Position numbers and translations under genes: made by a program
Shown here: one piece after another, positions 5,510 to 28,456 of the stretch
Layout: each line of letters opens with the position of its first letter
Numbering within the stretch: position 1 is the first letter of the stretch
The notes under the pieces: model-generated
Told to the model about the DNA's origin: nothing
Seen by the model: only the letters and a program-made list of their open reading frames with translations
The model's database searches: none
Source of the DNA: Paraglaciecola sp. MB-3u-78
Lineage (GTDB): Bacteria; Pseudomonadota; Gammaproteobacteria; Enterobacterales; Alteromonadaceae
Length of the DNA: 64,000 nt
NCBI RefSeq assembly: GCF_002835935.1
Contig: NZ_PJCF01000005.1
Coordinates: 496,001-560,000 of the forward strand
Direction of reading: 5' to 3'

Positions 5510-5690
5510 AAGTGGAAAACTGGACACACATCGTAAGAGTACAAGAAAATCGGCTTCGCCGATAACCGCTTTGGTGGCTCGGCCACTGCTTTATCCGTAT
5601 GTAAAGTTCAGCACAAAAAGGCTTATTTTAGGGGTAAATGGCAAGCGGACGCCGCGCGGGACGATGGTGCGCAGCGTGCCTTTTTTTACC
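5510..5690 (+). repeat. Copy E of the dispersed hairpin repeat (L module plus a GC-rich loop block)
   Basis: 5565-5637 aligns with the left module (L) of the repeats near 20.9, 26.5 and 28.2 kb, ending in the shared GGCTTATTTTAGGGGT. It holds hairpins such as ATCGGC-TTC-GCCGAT (5552-5566) and GTGGC-TCG-GCCAC. The R module is absent; in its place is an 18-base GC-rich block (5645-5662) whose exact reverse complement occurs in copy D at 28375-28392. Confidence 0.6.
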
Positions 5691-10889: not shown

Positions 10890-10960
10890 GAGTTTTAGAG
10901 GGGGATGGCTTCGCCACAAAGACATGTGAACGCCGCGCGGAACGTCGTTTGAGAGGTAGT
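10890..10960 (+). repeat. Partial, diverged copy of the hairpin repeat
   Basis: In the 324-base gap before the NTF2-like gene, 10928-10943 reads GAACGCCGCGCGGAAC, matching the GC-rich block of copies D and E except for G to A changes placed symmetrically on both sides. GATGGCTTCGCCAC just upstream resembles the TTC-loop hairpins of the same repeat. Apart from the terminator at 10766-10797 nothing else stands out in the gap. Confidence 0.35.
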
Positions 10961-16084: not shown

Positions 16085-16213
16085 CATTGATAGGGTATTC
16101 TATGACTAACTTGTTATCACCCTTGGTGGTTTTATAGTACGCATGAGCCGTATACGAGGCCCGTACGTACGGTTCTGTGAGAGGGATGAGGCATAAGCCT
16201 CACCCTACTCGAT
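16085..16213 (+). mobile_element. 3' tail of a second group II intron, cut by IS66
   Basis: These 129 bases match the last 129 bases of the complete intron (23414-23542) without a difference: the end of the maturase frame, the domain V hairpin starting GAGCCGTATACGAGG, and domain VI ending CCTACTCGAT. Everything upstream is missing and replaced by the right end of IS66. The base after the intron (16214) is therefore the 3' exon of its lost insertion site. Confidence 0.9.
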
Positions 16214-16262
16214 ATTGAACTAAACAATTACATATACACCCAGTGTAAGAATGACTATACAT

Positions 16263-16599: not shown

Positions 16600-16935
16600 G
16601 GGGCGATAATGCATGCGCTGTGTTTATCTGCATCCCGCGAAGCGTGCTTTTAAGGCATGCGCTGACGCTTACCGCATCTCGATAACTGCTCCTGCGTTAT
16701 TCTACCTTCCAACATCCATGTCGGTCGCATGCGGTTTTTCAATTGGCATCCTTGCCAAATGACTTACTTTTTTTATAAAGTGCGTCCTACACTTTACCTT
16801 TCAGGCCAGCTAAAGCTGTTCCATATTTATCCCGTAAATATGGTCTGCAGCCGCAAAAAATAAGCACAAATTTTTCAGGAAAAAATTTGAACATCCACAG
16901 GATGGCCCGAAGGGTGAAATATAGGACGTATTTCA
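16600..16935. repeat. Dense run of small hairpins with GGA/TCC apical loops
   Basis: Perfect hairpins occur in series: TTGGCA-TCCT-TGCCAA (16743-16758), TAAAGTG-CGTCCTA-CACTTTA (16776-16796), CCATATTTA-TCCCG-TAAATATGG (16821-16843), CAAATTTTT-CAGGA-AAAAATTTG (16867-16889) and TGAAATA-TAGGACG-TATTTCA (16915-16935). Stems are unrelated but the loops keep TCC, or its complement GGA. The first three carry GGA on the minus strand, the last two on the plus strand. No gene is visible from 16494 to 17632 apart from a 21-codon frame at 17539. Confidence 0.7.
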
Positions 16936-17019
16936 TAAAAAGGGCCGCTCGAGGGCAATGCTCTTCATCTGATTATTCGGTAAAGTTAGCGGCTTCAACT
17001 GAGTTCAAAACCTTCAAAG

Positions 17020-17120
17020 TAGTCAATCACACGTCCCTGATGATCGGCACCCAATCTCGACTTCCCTGTCGAGCTGTTCAACTGGGCGAAGCCGTGCTTC
17101 TAAAGAATCCACTTTCACCC
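17020..17120 (-). repeat. Repeat copy A, R module (inverted orientation)
   Basis: On the minus strand this matches the R module of copies B and C: GAATCCACTTT end, GAAGC-ACG-GCTTC hairpin, CTCGAC-AGGGAA-GTCGAG hairpin, and the GTGTGATTGACT end. It is joined directly to an S module at its right, whereas in copy C the R module before S points the other way. Confidence 0.75.
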
Positions 17121-17253
17121 TACTAAATTGAAGTAATAATCGGCGAGCCTTGAGTCGAGGGTAGGTCAAAAAATAAGACAAAAGCATCGGCTTCACCGAC
17201 TAAAAATTTTAGATTACTTTGCTGTTAGTTAATATGGATGGTTTTGTTAATCC
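17119..17253 (+). repeat. Repeat copy A, S module
   Basis: Aligns at roughly 85 percent by eye with 26797-26939: CTACTAAATTGAAGTAATA at the start, GGCGAGCCTTGAGTCGAGGG, a hairpin around CATCGGCTT.ACCGACT, then GCTGTTAGTTAATATGGATG. Both copies are on the same strand. Confidence 0.7.
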
Positions 17254-17632
17254 ACATCATCTTCCAACTATCGTCGCTGAGGATGCGTATTTTTGATGGT
17301 TGGGTGGGGCTTTCAAATATTTGAGCGAAAAACGGACACACGGAAAATTGTCTGGTAGTCTGGAATTAGGTCGGTTTTCGACCCAAAGCGGACGTTAATG
17401 TCTTTGTGAAACAGTCAAAATATAATGCAGATGTGCGAAAAAATTCATCAAAATCGGATAGAGAAAGCGGCTGCACACATGCATTGGTGCATCTTGTTTT
17501 TTTCATAATATGCTGTATCAAGGATAGGAAAAGAACCAATGAAAGTCTCTGCTGTGTATGATTTAGTTAGTCACAGAGCTTCCTCAGGAGTTCAACCATT
17601 TTAATAAGTTAAGTTCAAAAGGACGTTGCTCG

Positions 17633-19339
17633 GTGAAAATTAGAAGTTTAAAGATCAGGAACTTTCGTGGGGTAAAACAGCTCGATTGGAGCCTACCAGC
17701 AGGCGATATCTTCTGCCTTATAGGAAAAGGCGACTCCTCCAAATCAACCATCTTGGAAGCAATCCGGTATGCGTTCTTTCCCCAATGGAATCCCACGTTC
17801 AGCGACTCGGACTTCTATCAATGTAAAGTTGAGAACTCTATTGTCATTGAAGTCACAATTGGCGACTTGGTTGAAGAGTTTTGCTCACTCAACAAGTATG
17901 GCAACTACCTCCGAGGATGGGACCCAGCAGCATTGAAGCTAACAGATGAACCGGATGACCATCTGGAGAACGTTTTGACTGTGCGACTCACGGTTGATAA
18001 GGATTTGGAGCCGAAGTGGGTCGTGGTCTGCGACCGCACTCCCGATGGTGTTCCGTTCAAGCAAGGCGACAGAAGTAAAGTCAGTGTGGGGTTGATCGGT
18101 GCGTACAGCGAGAGGCAACTCTCGTGGGCGACTGGAACTGCGCTAGCCAAGTTGACTGAAGCGCAGAGCCTGAATGAACTTTTGGCGAATGCTTCTAGAA
18201 CGGCCAGAAGTTCACTGGATGCTAACCGGCCTGTCAGCCTCAAAAACTTTGATGCTGCGGCTGTAAAGTCGCAGGAAATAGCAAAGCTGCTAGGTGTCCC
18301 AGTGAAGGATGCGTACAAGGCCCACCTTGATCTGACATCCATAAATCTGAAGGTGGGCGGTCTAACCTTGCATGAAGGCGACATGCCGTTGCGTCAATTG
18401 GGTCTTGGATCGAGGCGAATGTTGCTATGTGGTATTCAAAAAGTTGGCCTCGAAGAAGGTCATATCACGTTGTTCGATGAAGTGGAGTTCGGCTTGGAGC
18501 CGCACCGGATCTCCCGACTTATCAAACACGTTAGAGAAGACAAGCGGGGGCAATACTTCCTCACGACCCACTCGCCCATCGTGCTGCGCGAACTTACAGT
18601 AAACGAGCTCCACATCGTTCACAACAATGATGGGGTAGTTCAGATGATTTCTGCTGCCAAAGAGAGCCTTGACGAACATGAGGTGCAGGGGAAAATTCGG
18701 TCAAGCACAGATGCATTTTTGGCAAAGAAGGTTGTCGTGTGCGAAGGCGCTACAGAGGTTGGCTTCCTGAGAGGCTTTGACGACTATCAGGTAGAAAATA
18801 AGAAAGATCCGTTTTCCTTTCATGGCGTGGCAATCTTGAATGCAGGTGGCGGAAGCAAGGTGAAGGGGCTAGCGAAGGCTTTTAAGTCGCTCTGCTATGA
18901 TGTATCGGTACTTGCTGATGCAGATGCTGAAGACCAATTTTCTGCTGCTGACGTTGCCGAGCTGGATGGGCTGGGGGTTCCAGTCCATGTTTGGAGCGAC
19001 AAGCTTTCATTGGAAGAGCGGGCCTTCCAAGATCTGCCGTGGCCCAACGTATTGGCCAGTGTGAAGCTCGCTCAAGATGAGTTGGGTTTTTCTGCGCACG
19101 ACCAAGTACGATCCAAGTTCCTTGAAGAGCTAGACAAGAATATTGACACATGGATGGACAGCCCCAAACTACGAACTGCCATCGGTGTTGCTGCGAAGAA
19201 GGCCGGTTGGTTCAAAGACACAACCAGAGGCGATCTATGGTTTAAGGCCGTAAGCCCGGCGTTTCAAGATGAAGCTTTCTGCAAGAGGAATCTGGCTCTT
19301 GAACTCGTCAAGCTTTGGACATGGGCAGAGCATGTCTGA
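17633..19339 (+). CDS. gajA: GajA-like OLD-family ATPase/TOPRIM nuclease (Gabija-like defence)
   Basis: 568 residues, close to the 578 of the founding GajA. The N-terminal ABC-type ATPase has a Walker A region GKGDSSKST (residues 31-39, serine in place of the usual glycine before lysine), signature QLGLGSRR (255-262), Walker B ITLFDEVEFGLEP (278-290) and TTHSP (311-315). The C-terminal TOPRIM domain follows with VVVCEGATE (E371) and LADADAED (D429, D431). In Gabija, GajA is a nuclease that attacks phage DNA. The start is GTG at 17633; AAGGA lies 11 bases upstream. The helicase gene overlaps its end. Base composition looks more GC-rich than the neighbours, suggesting transfer. A 21-codon frame (17539-17604) precedes it. 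Alternative: another OLD/UvrD pair outside strict Gabija. Confidence 0.75.
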   Translation: MKIRSLKIRNFRGVKQLDWSLPAGDIFCLIGKGDSSKSTILEAIRYAFFPQWNPTFSDSDFYQCKVENSIVIEVTIGDLVEEFCSLNKYGNYLRGWDPAALKLTDEPDDHLENVLTVRLTVDKDLEPKWVVVCDRTPDGVPFKQGDRSKVSVGLIGAYSERQLSWATGTALAKLTEAQSLNELLANASRTARSSLDANRPVSLKNFDAAAVKSQEIAKLLGVPVKDAYKAHLDLTSINLKVGGLTLHEGDMPLRQLGLGSRRMLLCGIQKVGLEEGHITLFDEVEFGLEPHRISRLIKHVREDKRGQYFLTTHSPIVLRELTVNELHIVHNNDGVVQMISAAKESLDEHEVQGKIRSSTDAFLAKKVVVCEGATEVGFLRGFDDYQVENKKDPFSFHGVAILNAGGGSKVKGLAKAFKSLCYDVSVLADADAEDQFSAADVAELDGLGVPVHVWSDKLSLEERAFQDLPWPNVLASVKLAQDELGFSAHDQVRSKFLEELDKNIDTWMDSPKLRTAIGVAAKKAGWFKDTTRGDLWFKAVSPAFQDEAFCKRNLALELVKLWTWAEHV

Positions 19340-20765
19340 AGTACTGGCAATCAAGCTCAACGAATGCACAACTAAAGGGTATGTGATCGCACCCGCCGGG
19401 TATGGGAAAACGCATCTTATAGCATTGGCAGTAAGGGCTTCTGTAGGCCGGCAACTGATTTTGACCCACACATTTGCGGGCGTAAACTCGATTAAGACCA
19501 AGATGGCCGCACTTGGTGTTCCTGCCTCCAAATATCAGGTGGACACGATTGCAAGCTGGTCGCTGCGCCTCTGCTTGGCATATCCCAAGACTTCGACATG
19601 GAAGACAGAAAACCCGACCAGCAAGCAGTGGAACAAGCTCTATGAATGTTGTGCTGGTTTGCTGATAAAGAGGTTTATTCGTCGTGTCGTCGCTGCTTCT
19701 TATGTCGGCGTGTACGTAGATGAGTATCAGGACTGCTCCGATCTTCAACACTTGTTGGTCTGCGCCTTGGCCGAGTTCTTGCCAAGCCGAATCTTAGGTG
19801 ATCCCATGCAGGCCATATTTAACTTTGGCGAAGGCAAGCCTGTAGATTGGGACGAGAGTGTCTACCCCCTTTTCGATTGCTTGGGAAAGTTGGAAATCCC
19901 ATGGCGCTGGGAAAATGCGGGTGAACCAAAACTTGGTGCTTGGTTGAAGGAAGCTCGAAAGAAGATAGAGTTGGGTCAGAAAATCGACCTGTCTGTCAAT
20001 CGTCCACCTTGCGTGGTTCGAGTATACACCGAACCGGTATATTTGGCATCAAACAAGTACTCTTCGCTCTGCAATCTGCTTGGTCATGACGACAGCGTAA
20101 TTGCTCTCCATGACGGGGCTCAGAAGTCCAAAAACAAGACTCACCAATTAGCACGGACCATGGCTGGCCGGTTTTCTTCAATTGAAGAAGTTGAAGGCAA
20201 AGATCTTCACTTGTTTTTTAAGAAATTCGGAGCCGCTAAGACAGTCCAAGCAAGCTTTCTTCTCGCATTGGACTTTGCCAAGAAATGCTTTACTGGCGTG
20301 AACAAGACACTGACTGCGGCTACCAAGAGGGGGGATGTGGCAAAGCAAACTAAAAGGACCAAGTATCCAGGGGTTTTGCATTCAGTGAATGCTTACCTGG
20401 AACAACCAACAAGCTTCCACCTTAAGTCATTTTTCTTGGAGTTGAAGTCCAACCCAGAGACATCGGCTTATCGTCGTGACCTGCTGTATCGCTTCCTCAA
20501 CGTATTGAAGATCCACATCGACGGCGAGGGGGTAGATCTTACCGAGGCAGCAAACCTGTATCAGCGCGAGATGAGGCATAATGGACGGCCGATCAGCCAC
20601 CGAAAGCTCATTAGGACAACGTTGCTAGTCAAGGGACTGGAATACGACCATGCGGTTATTCTCGATGCAGACACACTTGATGCTAAGGATTTGTATGTCG
20701 CTATGACTCGTGGGTCAAAGTCCCTTACCATTATTGGAGCAGGCAGATACTTGCCGGGGAAGTAA
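19332..20765 (+). CDS. gajB: GajB-like UvrD/Rep superfamily 1 helicase
   Basis: 477 residues from ATG at 19332, overlapping the gajA-like gene by eight bases; a frame extension to 19269 lies inside gajA and is unlikely. SF1 motifs in order: Walker A APAGYGKTH (20-28), VYVDEYQDCSDLQ (127-139), GDPMQAIFNF (156-165), LLVKGLEYDHAVILDAD (motif V) and LYVAMTRGSKSLTII (motif VI, near the end). Size, order and overlap match gajB of Gabija systems, where it acts with the GajA complex on phage DNA. The tight overlap implies co-translation. No third gene follows: the next sequence is repeat copy B. Confidence 0.75.
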   Translation: MSEVLAIKLNECTTKGYVIAPAGYGKTHLIALAVRASVGRQLILTHTFAGVNSIKTKMAALGVPASKYQVDTIASWSLRLCLAYPKTSTWKTENPTSKQWNKLYECCAGLLIKRFIRRVVAASYVGVYVDEYQDCSDLQHLLVCALAEFLPSRILGDPMQAIFNFGEGKPVDWDESVYPLFDCLGKLEIPWRWENAGEPKLGAWLKEARKKIELGQKIDLSVNRPPCVVRVYTEPVYLASNKYSSLCNLLGHDDSVIALHDGAQKSKNKTHQLARTMAGRFSSIEEVEGKDLHLFFKKFGAAKTVQASFLLALDFAKKCFTGVNKTLTAATKRGDVAKQTKRTKYPGVLHSVNAYLEQPTSFHLKSFFLELKSNPETSAYRRDLLYRFLNVLKIHIDGEGVDLTEAANLYQREMRHNGRPISHRKLIRTTLLVKGLEYDHAVILDADTLDAKDLYVAMTRGSKSLTIIGAGRYLPGK

Positions 20766-20911
20766 TGAGTGATGGTAAGCCATTGGCTATTACTAAATAG
20801 AAAAGAACCATTACTCTTATATGAGCCTATTGTCCGTAGGACAATTTAGTCCGCTTTGGGCGTAAAGCAGTTGTGCAACTAAACCCGCTTTTGGCCGTTA
20901 CTTGAATTATT

Positions 20912-21132
20912 CAAAATATCAGCACCCATCCTAAAAAGGCAAATTATTAGACCTTGTCGATATCAGCTCCAGTGGCTCCACCACTGCTTTCCCCGCCGTT
21001 AAAGTTTCAGCATAAAAAAGGCTTATTTTAGGGGTGAAACTGGATTCTTTAGAAGCACGGCTTCGCCCAGTTGAATATCTCGACAAGGACGTCGAGATTG
21101 GATTCCGATCATCATGGAGGTGTGATTGACTA
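20912..21132 (+). repeat. Repeat copy B (L and R modules, direct)
   Basis: L spans about 20912-21030 and R spans 21031-21132. Visible structures are CAGTGG-CTCCA-CCACTG, GTTTCA...TGAAAC flanking the L/R junction, GAAGC-ACG-GCTTC, and the perfect ATCTCGAC-AAGGAC-GTCGAGAT hairpin at 21077-21098. R is 102 bases, the same length as in copy C, and nearly identical. The IS1634-type element starts 15 bases after it. Confidence 0.8.
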
Positions 21133-21160
21133 AATATAAGGCCGATCTTCCGCACCACTT

Positions 21161-21448
21161 TTAATAATAAATATGCTGGTATTCACTGCCCAGACAATCA
21201 ATGATTATTTTTTGTCGTTCTTTTAGGTTTACCACTAACTCTTTCCCCTCAATATACAAGAGGGTCACCCCTTGAAAACACTGAAATACCCAACGGGCGG
21301 TGGGGTTTTGACTGGGTTTCTTCTTCATGTCTGGGAAGTAACGGTTTTGGACTTTTAACTGTTTACGTATTTGATGTTCTAACGAAGCGTAAACCATTAA
21401 GCAGCTGGTCATCACCATCAGTAGTGCTTCAATACGCTCTGGTTTTTT
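21161..21448 (-). pseudogene. IS1634-type transposase, 3' part (C-terminal exon)
   Basis: The frame from 21448 to the stop at 21161-21163 reads KKPERIEALLMVMTSCLMVY..., the C-terminal region of IS1634-family DDE transposases. Joining it in frame to the 5' part at 23543 restores SAIYLKKPERIEALL without gain or loss of a base. It is separated from the rest by the intron and cannot be translated as part of a full transposase unless the intron is lost. Confidence 0.85.
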
Positions 21449-23542
21449 GTTTGCCCAGCGAAGCTGGCAAACCCGTCAGGTTGAAAGAAACCTGAATCAC
21501 CCCGATTGAGGGGAAGATAATCCGAATGGTAAGTGCGTCACTGGCTAACGGTGGGGTGTGAAGGAAGCCATAGGAAGTTAGCGATACACAGCGTAAGCGA
21601 ACCTGTTTCGGCGTGGTGGGTGGGTAAGCGTGCAAAATAGCGCAACGCCCAATACTCAATCAGACCCATTACGTGTTTGAGGGTGGAATAGCTAATAGGG
21701 AGCCAGTGCAGTAACTGGGGAAGCCTGACATCATTTCCAGTGTAACTGGAAGTTTGTATCCAAGAAGTGATTCAAGGTACAGATTGGTGGGAGGTGGCAG
21801 ATGAACCCGTAGTAGTGAGTAAGGTCAGGCCTGTGAAAGCCAGTAATGGTGTGGAGGATAAAACCAGACCGACTGTTGGCAGTGTGTTCAACAGAGCAGG
21901 CAATACTCAAAAGGTGTTGTCTGTTGCGAAGGGGGGAAGTGTACTATAAGTGTCTGTTGTTCTTTTTTTTTGAAGTGTTGTGGACTCATAAGTGTGCCGA
22001 CGGGCACAGACATCTTGCTAATGGTTGCTTAGGAATAAGTGGACTGTGGTGAAGAGCCGAGTATTGGATTAGCTTGTTAACGCTCAAGTAGATTGCCCCG
22101 ATTAAGGGGCTAGCACGTTTGAGAAACAAGTGAAGTTGTCAGCCACAATGATGATAAAGCCAAGACAACGACCACAAGTTAAAGGTGAGGGTGGAAATGT
22201 TCTACAGTCTTTATGGTCGATTGTTACATGCGCAAGCATTAGAAGCGGCTTATAAACAAGTGGCAAGGGCGAAAGGTGCGGCCGGAATAGATGGGCAGAG
22301 CCTAAGCGATTTTGCAGCTGACTTGCAGAGCAATCTTCATATTTTACTGCTCGAACTGAAAGGTAAAACCTACCAAGCGCAGCCTGTACGTCGGGTAGAA
22401 ATACCCAAAGAAGATGGCAGTATGCGATTGCTTGGGATACCGACAGTGCGAGACCGCATCGTCCAACAAGCGTTATTAACGATATTGCAGCCCATCTTCG
22501 ATAAGGATTTTCATCCATCTAGCTATGGATATCGCCCGAAGCGAAGTTGCCATGATGCGATTAACAAGGCCACATTGTTTATAAGGCAATATGGTCGGCG
22601 TTGGGTCGTGGATATGGACTTGTCAAAGTGCTTTGACCGTTTATCCCATGAGTTAATACTCAAAGGCGTTAAGTGCAAAGTCACAGATGGCAGTGTGCTG
22701 AAATTAATCCAACAGTTTTTATCCAGTGGTGTGATGGAAGGTAACGAAGTGATACCGACTATCAAAGGCAGTCCGCAAGGCGGGGTAATCAGTCCGTTGT
22801 TATCGAACATTTACCTTGATGCATTCGACCAAGAAATGAAACGCAGAGGGCACCGAATAGTGCGTTATGCGGATGATATTTTAGTGTTATGCATCAGCCG
22901 AGTAGGCGCAGAGCATGCCTTGAACATTGCCACGACTATTTTAGAGGATGATTTACAACTTGTTGTGAATAAGACCAAAACCCATATCACGCACAGTGAT
23001 GATGGTGTTAAGTTCCTCGGAGTCGAAATTGGGACACAATATACCCGAATTCAACCTAAGAAACTGGTTAACTTCAAGCAGCGAGTGAAGCAGCTCACTA
23101 AGCGTAATACAGGGAAACCGCTGATAGATATCATTAAACGGTTAACCCCTGTGCTAAGAGGGTTCGCACATTATTTTAAGATAGCCAATTGCAAGCGAGA
23201 GTTTGTGAGCTTGATGAAATGGATAAGAAGACGCATGCGCGCTATTCAATTGAAGTTGTGGAAACGCCCAGCTCGTCTTCATAGACGACTAAGGCAACTT
23301 GGCTTCAAAGGAAAGTGTGTCTTCATAAAAATGGCGTCATGGCGCAATGCGAATTGTCCAATGGCGACTATTGCCATGAAGAATAGCTGGTTCGATGAAA
23401 TAGGGCTTTATCACATTGATAGGGTATTCTATGACTAACTTGTTATCACCCTTGGTGGTTTTATAGTACGCATGAGCCGTATACGAGGCCCGTACGTACG
23501 GTTCTGTGAGAGGGATGAGGCATAAGCCTCACCCTACTCGAT
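21449..23542 (+). mobile_element. Complete group II intron (2094 bases) in antisense to the transposase
   Basis: The boundaries are set by two independent facts. The 3' end CCTACTCGAT follows domains V (GAGCCGTATACGAGG...GGTTC) and VI. Removing 21449-23542 restores the interrupted IS1634 transposase exactly. The 5' end is GTTTGCCC, not the common GTGCG start, and forms a stem with GGCAAAC downstream. The intron is on the plus strand while its host gene is on the minus strand, so it cannot be removed from the transposase mRNA by splicing. It encodes a full-length reverse transcriptase/maturase. Confidence 0.9.
22197..23438 (+). CDS. ltrA: Group II intron reverse transcriptase/maturase
   Basis: 413 residues from ATG at 22197, preceded by a GGTGAGGGTGG ribosome-site-like stretch; GTG at 22185 is the alternative. 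RT motifs are in order: RRVEIPKEDGSMRLLGIPT, SSYGYRPKRSCHDA, VVDMDLSKCFDRL, KGSPQGGVISPLLSNIYLD and the catalytic YADD (residues 224-227). The thumb/maturase X region follows (LKLWKRPARLHRRLRQLGFKG) and the protein ends with NSWFDEIGLYHI. No HNH endonuclease domain is visible after it. All catalytic residues are intact, so the protein should support splicing and retrohoming. Confidence 0.9.
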   Translation: MFYSLYGRLLHAQALEAAYKQVARAKGAAGIDGQSLSDFAADLQSNLHILLLELKGKTYQAQPVRRVEIPKEDGSMRLLGIPTVRDRIVQQALLTILQPIFDKDFHPSSYGYRPKRSCHDAINKATLFIRQYGRRWVVDMDLSKCFDRLSHELILKGVKCKVTDGSVLKLIQQFLSSGVMEGNEVIPTIKGSPQGGVISPLLSNIYLDAFDQEMKRRGHRIVRYADDILVLCISRVGAEHALNIATTILEDDLQLVVNKTKTHITHSDDGVKFLGVEIGTQYTRIQPKKLVNFKQRVKQLTKRNTGKPLIDIIKRLTPVLRGFAHYFKIANCKREFVSLMKWIRRRMRAIQLKLWKRPARLHRRLRQLGFKGKCVFIKMASWRNANCPMATIAMKNSWFDEIGLYHIDRVFYD

Positions 23543-24856
23543 AAGGTAAATAGCACTGGTTAAAAAGTCGGGGCTCTTTAAGAATCGAAAGCCTTTTTCT
23601 ACGGACTGCTGGGATTTGTAGGTACTGAGTATCTTTTCCATGCTTAAATCATCCGCTAAATCATTACTAGCGATGATAAATAAGCCCAGCTGCTTCAACG
23701 CATCCTGTCGTTTTGCAAGACCAGTATAGAGGCTCCCTGTGATGTGATAATACTCACGTTTAGGCTGTTTGTCCTGGGAAGGGCGCCCTGCACCCGCGTA
23801 AACAGGCACCTTGTTGATCTGGCTGTCGACCATCAGATAAGGCTGTTTGACTTCCCACTGCGCTAAAGCTTGTTTGGCATCCTCTTGGCATGCAAACTCC
23901 TGTTGACCCAATTTCTTGAAGGACTTACGGCCTTGTTCAAACTGTTTGAGCATCCGCTTATCCAGATTATGGCCTTCACGTTTTCTGGCTTGCTCACTGC
24001 ATACCAGCAACCATTTTTGCGCCACATCACCATAGCTCGTTTCGTGCCACACGCCTTGATAACCGTCGCTTATATCAACAAAGTCCAGTTGATGGGCTTG
24101 AGCGATTAAACTTTTCGCCTCGTTCAATGTTTGAGGAACACGGGTAATAAACAACTGATTGATTGCATCAAGATGAACAATACTTTCTTTGACATACAGC
24201 GCCGCATCGGCCACCAGATAGCGGCTCGCTTGTGCGGCTTTTAAGCTTTGGATATGAGACTTAACAATTTTTTTGAAACCTTCCATATCATTAGTGTTGC
24301 CGCTGGACGGCTTCATATATACCGGAATGCCCGACTGGTTTTCGCAAATAAGATTTAAGATCACCTGATTGAGCTCAGGTCGATGCTCTCTGGAGTAGCC
24401 TTTGGCGACCTGGATGCAGTTGAACTCATCCTCTGCTGGCCTACCTTGGCCGTCATAATGGAAACTCGTGGAGTCGAGATGAACAGAGTCACAAGGCAAG
24501 TCTAGGTGTTTAACTACGGCTTCACCAAGGGTTTGATAAAGGGCTGAAACGCCTTTTTCATACAGCGCATCCAGACAGCGACCTAGGGCATCATCGTTGA
24601 TATGCTCAGGCTCGATCCCGGGTGCAATCAGTCGCTCAAGAGGTTTGTCCTCGAAATATTCGCTGTACATATGCAGGGTACGGCCAGTAAAGCCCAGGCC
24701 ATTGATAATCATGGCGACAAAGAGCTGTCCAAAGCTGATATTTCTCTTGTCTGAGACGCCAAGAGCTTGATCAATAATTTGGGCTAAGCGGATTTCTTTG
24801 CAAAAACCGGCAACCAGACCGTGGTGTTCTAATGTTTTAGTAAAAGGTGAGGACAT
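23543..24856 (-). pseudogene. IS1634-type transposase, 5' part (N-terminal exon)
   Basis: From ATG at 24856 (MSSPFTKTLEHHGLVAGFCK, the usual IS1634 family start) through DSVHLDSTSFHYDG and YLVADAALY, DDE core motifs, to SVEKGFRFLKSPDFLTSAIYL at 23543, where the intron breaks the frame. Reading on into the intron stops after two residues. A longer frame to 24889 is not preferred. About 438 residues remain but the C-terminal 95 are separated, so the transposase is inactive. Confidence 0.85.
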
Positions 24857-25196
24857 AATTCTAGCTCTCAAAAGAGAGTAATAGATCAAGATCTGAGATC
24901 TACGTCAAGTTTTTTTTCATTATTCTTTAAATCGTCTGTTTATTGACCAAAATTAATGGTTAATTTAAGTGCGGAACGACAGTTAAATTGACTGCACACC
25001 AACTAATTCTAAATAGGTGTAAAAATATTGAAAGCGGATGTCCTGTTTAGTTAACCTTGAATCAAATCCATATCTGCAGTAGAAACAGGCTTTATTTCTA
25101 TCTCTGGCTTTTGTCATTTCGTCGCTTATCTCTTGTTAAGCCATTACGAATCAAATAGCTTGCTACTTTGCCATTATCAAAGACAAAGAAGTATTC

Positions 25197-26420
25197 ATGA
25201 GACTTAGTTCTATTTTAAAATGCTTAGCCTGTTCCACTTTGATTTTGATCTCCCAAAGTTATGCCAAGCAGCAAAAGTTGTTACCTGATGATGGTAAAGC
25301 AGAAGACCATTTTGGCTTTAGTGTCGCGATAGATGGCACAACTGCATTAGTCGGTGCGTACAAAGCCGATGCCAAACACATCCAAGATTCGGGGGCAGCC
25401 TACGTTTATTCCCTTGGCTCTGAAGGTTGGGAACAGCAAGCAAAATTAGTCGCCGAACCCGCACATGTTGATGACACACTCGGTGGTAATGTGGCGTTGA
25501 AAAATCACATGGCAATGTTAGGCGTGAGTAGAAGAGACGATAAAGGTGATGATGCTGGTGCAGTGTTTACCTTTGAGCTTGAGGCAAATTCATGGTCGCA
25601 AAGGCAAATTTTAACAGCTATAGATGCCAAACCTGGGGATGCATTTGGTCAAAGCATCGCTCTCTCAGAGCAGTTTCTTGTCATCGGCGCGCCCCACAGC
25701 GATGCACTACGTAAAGACTCAGGATCAGCTTACGTTTTCATACGAGACAAAAATACATGGCGGTTTCAAGCCAAACTAACCGCAAAAGATGGCGCTGCAG
25801 GTGACTTGTTCGGGATCAGTGTAGCGATTGATGGTGATACTGTTCTAGTTGGTGCTGACTTGAATGATGAAAAAGCAGAAAAAGCCGGCGCCGTTTATGT
25901 CTATTTATTTGACGGCAAACAATGGAACTAACAAGCAAAGCTTATGGCTGAAGATGGCGCTAACACTGATATCTTTGGCGTGAGAGTGGCGTTGTTTGGC
26001 GATACAGCATTAATATCAGCCAGAAGAGACGATATAGAAGGCGTTGGCGCCGATGCGGGATCTGCCTATATTTTTGAGCGAAGAAAAGACAAATGGACGC
26101 AAACACAAAAATTAGTCGCACCTGATGGTAAAGCCGATGACAGATTCGCTCGTGGCGTAGCGTTAAACAAAGATACGGCTCTAATCAGTGCCATGCACCA
26201 TGATGCCAATGGCATTAATACAGGAGCTTTGTATGTGTTCAAAAAACAATTAGGTCAATGGCGTTTTACATCGAAAGTAGTGGCTAGTGATGGTGCGTCA
26301 GAAGATAGGTTTGGTTGGAATGTTGCCCTTACAGACAATACTGCGATAATCGCTTCTCCTCATCGCGATGAAAATGGTAATGCATCGGGCGCTGCTTACA
26401 TTCAAGATTTTCCGGATTAA
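25197..26420 (+). pseudogene. Secreted FG-GAP (integrin-like) beta-propeller gene with one nonsense codon
   Basis: A continuous frame of 407 codons interrupted only by TAA at 25929-25931, where homologous repeats have QQAKL (CAA to TAA would explain it). The first part has a signal peptide (LACSTLILISQSYA) and about five propeller units; the second adds three more, so seven or eight blades were present. Each unit has the pattern DxFGxxVAIDGDTxLVGA...GAVYVYxxxxxxW followed by QAKL. Such proteins are exported and usually mediate binding. Translation may stop at the nonsense codon or resume at ATG 25944 without a signal peptide. A terminator follows. Confidence 0.8.
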
Positions 26421-26433
26421 AAATTGTCCTGTG

Positions 26434-26473
26434 AGGTTGACTGGTTCAAGCAGCTTTAGTCAGTCACCTTTTT
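26434..26473 (+). terminator. Terminator after the FG-GAP gene
   Basis: AGGT-GACTG with one bulged T pairs with CAGTCACCT, followed by TTTT. It lies 14 bases after the stop codon at 26420. Confidence 0.6.
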
Positions 26474-26534
26474 GTATCCACCAGTAACAAATATGTCTAG
26501 CTTCAAATATGGAGTGTGTTGCGAATTACATAAT

Positions 26535-26749
26535 CACATGGACACTCATCCTAAGAAGGTAAATTAATCGACCTTGTCGATATCAACTCTGGTGGCAGCC
26601 ACAGCTTTTCCCGCCTTTAAAGTTTCAGCTTAAAAATGCTTGTTTTAGGGGTGAAACTGGATTCTTTAGAAGCACGGCTTCGCCCAGTTGAATATCTCGA
26701 CAAGGACGTCGAGATTGGGTTCCGATCATCATGGAGGTGTGATTGACTA
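26535..26749 (+). repeat. Repeat copy C (L and R modules, direct)
   Basis: L is about 26535-26647 and R is 26648-26749 (102 bases). R differs from copy B at only a few positions and keeps the CTCGAC-AAGGAC-GTCGAG hairpin and the GTGTGATTGACTA end. An S module follows after a 47-base linker, so this is the most complete copy (L-R-S). Confidence 0.8.
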
Positions 26750-26796
26750 AATATAAGGAAGTGCTTCAGCCTCAATTTGCATCCCTGAAAATCACT

Positions 26797-26939
26797 CTAC
26801 TAAATTGAAGTAATAGTCGGCGAGCCTTGAGTCGAGGGTACGGCAAAAGATAAGACAAAAGCATCGGCTTTGCCGACTGTGGGTTTTAGATTGCTTTGCT
26901 GTTAGTTAATGTGGATGTCTTGTTAATCGTGTTAGATGT
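26797..26939 (+). repeat. Repeat copy C, S module
   Basis: Aligns with 17119-17253 on the same strand (CTACTAAATTGAAGTAATA, GGCGAGCCTTGAGTCGAGGG, GCTGTTAGTTAATRTGGATG). Here the hairpin is TCGGC-TTT-GCCGA, perfectly paired. The rest of the 26421-27268 gap holds repeat copy C, the terminator, the parDE promoter and otherwise nothing recognisable. Confidence 0.7.
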
Positions 26940-27212
26940 CGTGTTAATCCATATAAGACAAGAGCCGGAAGTACTACTGGGATTGCTGCTTGTTTAGATC
27001 TCATTAAGTCAGAAGATTTGCTAACAATCTATACTCAGTATACGCCCTGTAAAGATGTGTCTTCTTGGCGAGATAAAAATGAGTATGCAGTGCGTTGTAA
27101 AGGTGGCTAACAAGACCATGCAATCTGACTCCGCAACCTGACACTTTTTGTGCAATACCGCATAAAATGATTTGCTTGGACACCCTTCTTAATAAAGTAT
27201 CAACATCAAAGA

Positions 27213-27241
27213 TTGACAATGATTGTCACTAGCGTTATTTT
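27213..27241 (+). promoter_or_regulatory. parDE promoter overlapping an operator palindrome
   Basis: TTGACA at 27213-27218, a 17-base spacer and TATTTT at 27236-27241 form a sigma-70-like promoter. A perfect inverted repeat TGACAAT-G-ATTGTCA (27214-27228) overlaps the -35 box, well placed for autorepression by ParD. Confidence 0.7.
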
Positions 27242-27268
27242 CAAAGTGCACAAACAAGAGGTAAGACC

Positions 27269-27508
27269 ATGCACGTATCATTAACACCAGAACTTGAGAG
27301 CCTTGTAAAAGGTCAAGTCGAAAGCGGTTTATACAATTCATCGAGCGAAGTAGTGCGCGAAGCCCTGCGCGTATGGAATGAACAGCGGCAATATAAAAAG
27401 AAAATGGAAATATTGCGCGCAAAACTCGAACTTGCCGAAAAAAGCCCGTTGCTTGATAATTTTTCTATGGACGAACTAATAAAAGAACTTGATAACGAAG
27501 TCACTTAG
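27269..27508 (+). CDS. parD: ParD-family antitoxin
   Basis: 79 residues. The N-terminal ribbon-helix-helix (MHVSLTPELESLVKGQVESG, SSSEVVREALRVW) is typical of ParD, and the acidic C-terminal helix would wrap the toxin. GAGG lies nine bases before the ATG. The promoter and palindrome upstream fit autorepression by the ParD-ParE complex. The toxin gene follows immediately. The module lies between repeat copies C and D, as expected for a mobile stability module. Confidence 0.85.
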   Translation: MHVSLTPELESLVKGQVESGLYNSSSEVVREALRVWNEQRQYKKKMEILRAKLELAEKSPLLDNFSMDELIKELDNEVT

Positions 27509-27512
27509 TAGC

Positions 27513-27806
27513 GTGGCCATAAAATATAAATTACACCAAGAGGCCATAGAAGACCTAAAAGAAATTGGGCGTTATACCCTAAAACATCACGGTAAAAATC
27601 AACGTAACATCTATTTGCAAGGTATCAATAAACACTTTGAATCTCTAGCAGATATGCCCTTAATGGGCCGCCCTCGTAATGAAATAAAAGAAGGCTATTA
27701 CAGCAGCGAATATAAGAAACACGTAATTTTCTATCTCATTCAAGAGAACTTTATAGAGGTACTAGGGGTATTGCATGAAACCATGCTGCCAGAACGACAT
27801 TTATAG
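27513..27806 (+). CDS. parE: ParE-family toxin
   Basis: 97 residues from GTG at 27513 (MAIKYKLHQEAIEDLKEIGR), four bases after the parD stop; a TTG at 27489 in frame would overlap parD. The fold signature is complete: YTLKHHGKNQRNIYLQGI, FESLADMPLMGRPRNEI, GYYSSEYKKHVIFYLIQENF and the final VLHETMLPERHL. ParE toxins studied inhibit DNA gyrase. Both genes are intact, so this is probably a working toxin-antitoxin pair, the only complete one in the window. Confidence 0.85.
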   Translation: MAIKYKLHQEAIEDLKEIGRYTLKHHGKNQRNIYLQGINKHFESLADMPLMGRPRNEIKEGYYSSEYKKHVIFYLIQENFIEVLGVLHETMLPERHL

Positions 27807-28159
27807 AAATTTTCGCCACTATTGAAGGTTATCGTAAGCATTGCGGCAGGTACTTTTACCATGTGAGTATTTTAGTCCATTAGCCCTTTTTGCCATTGAA
27901 CTAACCACGGGATTGGTTACCGATATTATACTTTCTTCTCGAACAACGATGTTAAAAATCAACAAAATATTAAGTCAGCTTTCAGGCAGTTTGGTCATTA
28001 ACCAATTCTTCTCAATTGTGGAAAGTTGAGCGATGACTTGCAGTTCGAAGTGAAAATTTGAAATGTTCGCTATTTTGCGACAGTTAATATGATGGCCACT
28101 GATCAATAGCGTTGTATTAATAGACAAAAAAACTTCCAGTCGAGTCATTACTTATTACA

Positions 28160-28447
28160 ATTATATGGACACTCGCCGTAAGTAAAATAATAGACCACGT
28201 CGATATCAGCTCTGGTGGCTCAAGCACTGCTTTCCTCGCCTTTAACGTTTCAGCAAAAAATGGCTTATTCTTAGGGAAAATGACATGGAAGTCATTAAAT
28301 CATTGGGATATCCTTAAGCTAGTCAATCACACGCCATGATGATCGGCACTCGGTTACCGCGTAACAATCTCGACGTCCCGCGCGGCGTCCGCCTGTCGAG
28401 ATGTTCAACTGGGCAAATCCGTGCTTCTAAAGAATCCAGTTGAACCC
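28160..28447. repeat. Repeat copy D (L direct, R inverted, enlarged loop)
   Basis: L (about 28160-28275) has the same orientation as in copies B and C, but R (28320-28447) is reversed. Between them sits a hairpin AATGAC-ATGGAA-GTCATT (28280-28297). The CTCGAC/GTCGAG hairpin of R has an enlarged 20-base loop containing the GC-rich block (28375-28392). The copy ends ten bases before the next gene. The remaining 350 bases between parE and this repeat contain no recognisable gene. Confidence 0.75.
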
Positions 28448-28456
28448 ATCAAATAA

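Follow-up and report, generated by a model that had tools for sequence, protein, structure and literature searches.

A dispersed, mosaic intergenic repeat of Alteromonadaceae that resembles a CsrA-binding RNA module

The rtT repeats at the tyrT locus of Escherichia coli consist of structured units in tandem at a tRNA gene, and every unit includes a piece of the tRNA end. Repetitive extragenic palindromic (REP) sequences and bacterial interspersed mosaic elements (BIMEs), with their REP-associated tyrosine transposases (RAYTs), are intergenic, dispersed, hairpin-forming and mosaic. The small RNAs (sRNAs) CsrB/CsrC and RsmX/Y/Z repeat CsrA-type sites in hairpin loops and single-stranded stretches, and act as decoys that sequester CsrA. 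They come from dedicated genes with many sites each; CsrB carries 22 GGA (PMC7652899). Alteromonas macleodii Te101 has three neighbouring CsrB-like sRNAs, Aln1a-c, which lie within 404 bp, are rich in A(N)GGA and are very highly expressed (PMC5864184). Here, we analyzed a 64,000-nt stretch of Paraglaciecola sp. MB-3u-78 (the window, to which all plain coordinates refer), in which a module called R recurs together with modules called L and S. R is intergenic, dispersed, hairpin-forming and mosaic as REP/BIME sequences are; like the Csr and Rsm sRNAs it has CsrA-type sites in a loop and a single-stranded stretch, but it holds two of them and is dispersed and mosaic. Its host belongs to the same bacterial family as that of Aln1a-c, which is described at one locus while R is dispersed, a comparison made by description. 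For dispersed repeats made of CsrA sites, no published description was found in one open-access library.

R is about 102 nt long, on the strand read as GGGTGA.... Its consensus is GGGTGAAACTGG-ATTCTTTA-GAAGC-ACN-GCTTC-GCCCAGTTGAAC, followed by hairpin 2, GCTCGAC-ANGGAN-GTCGAGA, and then by TTGGGTGCCGATCATCANGGAYGTGT. In the predicted R RNA, hairpin 1 would be a structural arm, hairpin 2 would present a six-base ANGGAN loop closed by a C-G pair, and a second CANGGANG site would follow 29 nt on. The structure is supported by covariation. In an alignment of 45 R copies (A1; from 57, five aberrant or truncated copies and seven near-duplicate or gapped ones were dropped), 16 of 22 pairs changed on both sides, a result that neither the 500 shuffles nor any slid structure came near. 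Among 117 distinct rows from other genomes, 19 of 20 pairs changed on both sides, in an alignment that was fitted to our covariance model of R (R1) and so leans towards the model. The R sequences of two window copies folded better than their shuffles (copy B, z -3.04; copy C, z -3.22), and that of copy A hardly did (z -1.1). L folded no better than shuffles (z 0.3 and 1.9).

The loop of hairpin 2 is more constant than its stem. Among 44 R copies less than 75% identical to one another (kept from 130 rows), there were 34 different hairpin 2 stems, while the loop read ANGGA in 39 and was closed by C-G in 41. The second ANGGA, 29 nt downstream, was present in 39 of these copies, with C before and G after it in 41. 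In alignment A1, the fixed bases of both sites were kept in 42-45 of the 45 copies, and the N positions took all four bases. These features can be set beside the published CsrA ligands. Selection by systematic evolution of ligands by exponential enrichment (SELEX) yielded the consensus RUACARGGAUGU with ACA and GGA fully conserved; 51 of 55 ligands presented GGA within a hairpin loop, and six-base loops occurred in 44 (PMC7652899). The Pseudomonas Rsm recognition word is CANGGANG, written 5'CANGGANG3' (PMC6849547). Judged by sequence, the loop of R, its closing pair and its loop size are those of the published CsrA/RsmA recognition motif, and R units carry repeated GGA sites that match this motif in a hairpin loop, at two sites per unit only. 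The MB-3u-78 genome has one csrA.

The same loop recurs outside R. In an unguided count made with R masked and restricted to loops of six bases closed by perfect six-pair stems, ANGGAN was the commonest loop in the R-bearing regions of the MB-3u-78 genome (15 of 531 hairpins), and it was absent from the 268 hairpins of 400 kb of the same genome chosen by the analyst as control regions away from R. In a hairpin list that includes those of R, with stems of at least five pairs and G-U allowed, 115 ANGGAN hairpins were found in 616 kb compared with 13 in the 400 kb of control; part of the 115 lack the C-G closing pair and resemble another repeat. L can likewise end in a hairpin with an ANGGAN-type loop like that of R, on other stems.

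R1 found 48 matches on 12 contigs of the MB-3u-78 genome, and a DNA query of L plus R found at least 53 places (40 of 82 candidates scored). The candidates scored with R1 numbered at most 150 in this genome, 27 in each of 147 genomes of the family and 20 in each of 197 genomes of the order, with one genome sampled per species. Of the 48 matches, 47 lie outside open reading frames (ORFs) of at least 120 amino acids, such as random placement overlaps in 73% of cases. The matches merge into 40 clusters, and neighbouring pairs less than 10 kb apart number 10; 5000 uniform draws gave 2.1 such pairs on average and never more than 8. By DNA similarity, R was present in 17 of 60 relatives, all of one genus, and an exact 31-nt match occurs in a Paraglaciecola metagenome-assembled genome. 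By R1, it was present in 34 of the 147 family genomes, representing 17 of 52 genera, and in six of the 197 order genomes, five of them of the same family. The sixth, of another family of the order, has a single good copy (87 bits; G266:C1:3791723-3791824) with no tRNA gene within its 3.1 kb, which was possibly transferred. Plasmid and phage collections gave no match to R, although records very near the MB-3u-78 genome may be left out of them, and on a viral contig with one exact 18-nt match R1 reported nothing. Copy number, presence in other genomes, intergenic placement and clustering together make R a family-wide interspersed, clustered repeat that is also present in this accessory region. 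The search of other genomes had been proposed by a sequence-only reading of the window, and it located R beyond both the genome and the genus.

Many copies of R carry possible marks of insertion. Direct repeats flank 49 of 141 copies, compared with 13 of 423 swapped pairs, and in 29 of these 49 the repeat stops at base 1-4 of R, often as ...TGG/G at the boundary. Direct repeats of this kind abut mobile non-autonomous elements; here they would be expected if R inserted at GG and duplicated its target, or if a tandem duplication followed its insertion. Behaving as an interspersed non-autonomous element, R would join target DNA at GG and leave duplicated target sequence beside it. The sequence-only reading had offered a mobile non-coding element as one of two explanations, and the 48 dispersed matches, their placement outside large ORFs, the flanking repeats and the presence in other genera make this part of it likely. 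The modules may also nest in one another's hairpin loops and so produce mosaics. Among 92 R matches there were 19 inserts of at least 5 nt: 11 in the hairpin 2 loop, five in the 3' foot of hairpin 2 and three in the hairpin 1 loop. These positions come from a structure-fitted alignment; some of the inserts are related by descent, and an R interrupted at other positions would more easily escape detection. Hairpins with an ATGGAC loop occur among the inserts. Among 24 L ends found with a strict anchor, six were intact, 10 ran into R, four held a palindrome and four were of other kinds.

R is also linked to tRNA genes. In the MB-3u-78 genome, a tRNA gene stands no more than 500 nt from six of the 40 R clusters, compared with 0.36% of control bases; in four other genomes, this holds for eight of 30 listed R loci, several of them copies of one array. 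Wherever R lies within 600 nt of tRNA-Ser(GGA), it precedes that gene in sense orientation; this holds for all 10 such genomes, from six genera (G000, G002, G006, G008, G032, G033, G065, G074, G083 and G122; 13 loci, three repeating a place), and no other arrangement was seen. R also stands upstream in sense of tRNA-Ser(UGA) in G032. In all seven tRNA-Ser leaders checked, a -35/-10-like pair (TTnnnn-17-TAnnnT) and then a GCGC stretch precede R. Nine genomes have a single R match, and of the seven such loci examined five hold R in a tRNA-Ser(GGA) leader; in G169 the locus looks like such a leader but the contig ends, and in G031 no tRNA gene is near. The arrangement reaches beyond tRNA-Ser. In G060, an R with an enlarged hairpin 1 stands in sense 19 nt upstream of tRNA-Gly, and duplicated tRNA 5' sequence lies on its other side. 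R arrays contain fragments of tRNA genes, taken from the 5' part of tRNA-Ser or from the 3' part of tRNA-Thr and tRNA-Leu. In this they are like the rtT repeats, as tandem units at a tRNA gene that carry tRNA pieces; they differ in which pieces these are, and R is also dispersed. The Rfam searches made gave no match of rtT to R.

On balance, R and the end of L are probably CsrA/RsmA-binding RNA modules that form a mobile mosaic family and act as CsrA decoys where they are transcribed. The repeats look like a spread CsrA-binding RNA because their most constant part is the loop that CsrA grips. There are two sites per R, and therefore one R could hold one CsrA dimer. A transcribed R would be a small piece of a CsrB/RsmZ-like decoy, tying up CsrA and relieving its mRNA targets. 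The clearest context in which R is presumably transcribed is the tRNA-Ser(GGA) leader, where it stands in sense between promoter-like sequence and the tRNA, and the cleavage that forms the 5' end of the tRNA would set the R RNA free. We have fair confidence in the identity of R as a CsrA-type RNA module, and less in its function as a decoy. As to the direction of spread, we tentatively suggest that decoys in tRNA-Ser 5' leaders linked CsrA titration to tRNA synthesis and growth rate, and that GG joining and loop nesting may have turned them into a selfish or half-selfish interspersed repeat; this history is possible but doubtful.

Several observations weigh against the decoy interpretation. 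Some concern the sites themselves: both were kept in only 62 of 92 R matches, and all six hairpin 2 positions were paired in only 29 of the 44 diverse copies as aligned. Most SELEX ligands had no more than four contiguous pairs and hence shorter stems than R (PMC7652899). In R-masked loci of other genomes, the ANGGAN loop was not clearly raised (3 of 249). Others concern transcription. Terminator-like sites were unbiased by R strand, at 26 versus 25 of 47 in the MB-3u-78 genome and 25 versus 25 of 43 elsewhere, as were promoter-like sites, at 1 versus 0 in each set. R shows no sense-strand bias towards a promoter and terminator of its own, such as CsrB/RsmZ-type RNAs have. Among 44 cases, 21 had R antisense to both neighbouring genes, and seven had it in sense with both. 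A third group concerns the leaders. In seven genomes, R lies on the antisense strand downstream of tRNA-Leu(CAA). Of 26 tRNA-Ser loci chosen for their likeness to the tRNA-Ser of MB-3u-78, a sample that missed the diverged tRNA-Ser genes of G032, G033, G065, G074 and G083, 24 lacked R and one of the other two had a fragment; CANGGANG occurred in only three of these 26 leaders. No general rule that tRNA-Ser leaders carry R or CsrA sites was found among the sampled loci. Finally, the GG joining rule alone could explain the fixed orientation of R at a given tRNA, and the argument from the leaders is weakened accordingly.

The strongest alternative, which we nevertheless regard as rather unlikely, is that R is a DNA-level palindromic repeat of the REP/BIME type or like a miniature inverted-repeat transposable element, whose hairpins are recognized as single-stranded DNA by an unnamed transposase or nuclease and whose likeness to CsrA sites is incidental. 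R is indeed dispersed, intergenic and of high copy number; the flanking duplications tend to end at its first bases, modules nest in hairpin loops, and orientations are mixed without promoter or terminator bias. What argues against it is that the stems vary while the loop stays, the reverse of what is expected of a palindrome kept for itself. Moreover, the same eight-base word recurs outside the hairpin, and it equals a known RNA-binding motif including the closing pair and loop size. Compared with REP/BIME sequences, R is longer, has constant loops on changing stems and is not found at Y1_Tnp loci: R1 had no match at the 11 loci of this RAYT/IS200 type (about 3 kb each) in the MB-3u-78 genome, and R as the REP of a resident RAYT was rejected. 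Two RAYT-type loci (G000:C34 and C13) carry separate short repeats that bear no relation to R.

A further reading, improbable in our view, makes R and L cis-acting CsrA sites within 5' or 3' untranslated regions, through which the adjacent genes would come under CsrA control. In its favour, copy B is found in sense downstream of gajB, and copy C in sense downstream of the FG-GAP ORFs. The antisense placement given above speaks against it, and the distances between R and the genes are often hundreds of bases.

Known RNA families were also considered for R. Rfam gave no match to it, neither to a known CsrB/Rsm covariance model nor to another family, the searches yielding group II introns and chance-level matches only. 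The MB-3u-78 genome has a separate CsrB-like locus (C45:358170-358494) that scored 33.8 bits, below the family cut-off of 71, at a lax limit at which eight of 14 control genomes also scored; its reverse strand is AGGA-rich. R1 met this locus only at 11.6 bits (E 0.043 and 0.59), on the GGA-rich strand, which amounts to a distant likeness at most, and R as a canonical CsrB copy was rejected. The GGA-rich locus (about 358.2-358.6 kb of C45) adjoins two conserved small genes of 341 and 101 amino acids. At least nine ANGGA per 350 nt on one strand were counted in 17 of 30 family loci of the CsrB-like neighbourhood, compared with one of 40 control strands.

Within the window, four main copies (A-D) and a fragment E, all proposed in the sequence-only reading, were recovered by BLAST with E values from about 1e-10 (fragment E) to 6e-53, well outside what chance would give. 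Their layouts are mosaic: R(-)-S in A, L-R in B, L-R-S in C and L-R(-) in D, with R on the minus strand in A and D and on the plus strand in B and C. Copy A comprises R at 17019-17120 on the minus strand (R1, 119.3 bits; hairpin 2 with its ANGGAN loop at 17056-17073; BLAST range 17120-17020) and S at 17116-17252 on the plus strand, 88% identical to the S of copy C (BLAST start 17116). Copy B has L at 20918-21030, recognized by within-window similarity (BLAST start 20918), and R at 21032-21133 (117.0 bits; hairpin 2 at 21077-21098; second ANGGA site in 21106-21128; BLAST range 21031-21141), both on the plus strand. Copy C, also on the plus strand, has L at 26543-26647, 82% identical to the L of copy B (BLAST start 26543), R at 26649-26750 (119.2 bits; hairpin 2 at 26694-26715; second site in 26723-26745; BLAST range 26648-26758) and S at 26793-26960 (BLAST start 26793); by DNA search, S occurs at 25 places in the MB-3u-78 genome. 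In copy D, L at 28166-28310 on the plus strand (BLAST start 28184) keeps an intact end hairpin, AATGACATGGAAGTCATT, at 28279-28296, and R at 28319-28447 on the minus strand scores 59.8 bits and holds two nested inserts, in the loop and the 3' foot of hairpin 2; BLAST found it as two pieces in 28447-28320. Fragment E is an L module at 5521-5643 on the plus strand, 71% identical over 124 nt to the L of copy D, with a nested palindrome in its end hairpin; BLAST reached it weakly from 5560. A further fragment proposed near 10930 had no BLAST match; by eye, 10918-10953 on the plus strand is at best a weak candidate for an L end-hairpin remnant with a nested palindrome. Extra modules of the same style, unmentioned in that reading, occupy 16640-16960. 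Module T, at 16640-16780 on the minus strand, has ANGGAN hairpins at 16709-16724 and 16743-16758, and module U, at 16780-16960 with no strand assigned, has GGA-loop hairpins on both strands; T occurs at 12 and U at 23 places in the MB-3u-78 regions examined, and neither in the control regions.

The genes between the copies are as the sequence-only reading had named them: a Gabija pair (PADLOC; GajA 682 bits, GajB 542 bits), an IS1634-type transposase identified by its DUF4277 and DDE domains, FG-GAP ORFs at 25197-25931 and 25944-26420, and ParD/ParE. The two FG-GAP ORFs are a single FG-GAP repeat gene split by an in-frame break at about 25931-25944. A group II intron (21160-24889; Rfam RF02001 and RF00029) with a reverse transcriptase/maturase ORF at 22185-23438 adjoins the IS1634-type element, apparently lying inside it, and the last 130 nt of this intron are repeated unchanged at 16085-16214.

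That the repeats form a cassette-like array of recombination sites which move defence and stability genes, as first proposed, is highly improbable: repeat copies do stand between GajAB, the IS1634/FG-GAP stretch, ParDE and a membrane protein, and R is clustered, for example at C67:240-260 kb, where four of the five large ORFs scanned are transposase-like, but orientations are mixed, boundaries are mosaic, the 48 matches are genome-wide with many beside tRNA genes, transposases or ordinary metabolic genes, and the duplications enclose R and not the cargo. An integron with attC sites, whose single-gene cassettes share a single orientation, was rejected, given the mixed orientations and genome-wide distribution of R. 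The same proposal would have failed on an even scatter of R without a link to variable genes, or on its absence elsewhere; R is clustered and occurs in other genomes, and no link to defence cargo was found. As a recombination site for such cargo, R has several points against it and no evidence in its favour, and this role is not supported. For this region, a CsrA-type RNA module is a better supported explanation than a new defence-gene cassette system.

The known CsrA decoys are dedicated sRNAs. If R is a CsrA-binding module, the family would add tens of extra CsrA sites scattered through the genome. A tRNA precursor could then carry a sponge for a global regulator, and an RNA regulatory module could turn into a mobile repeat.

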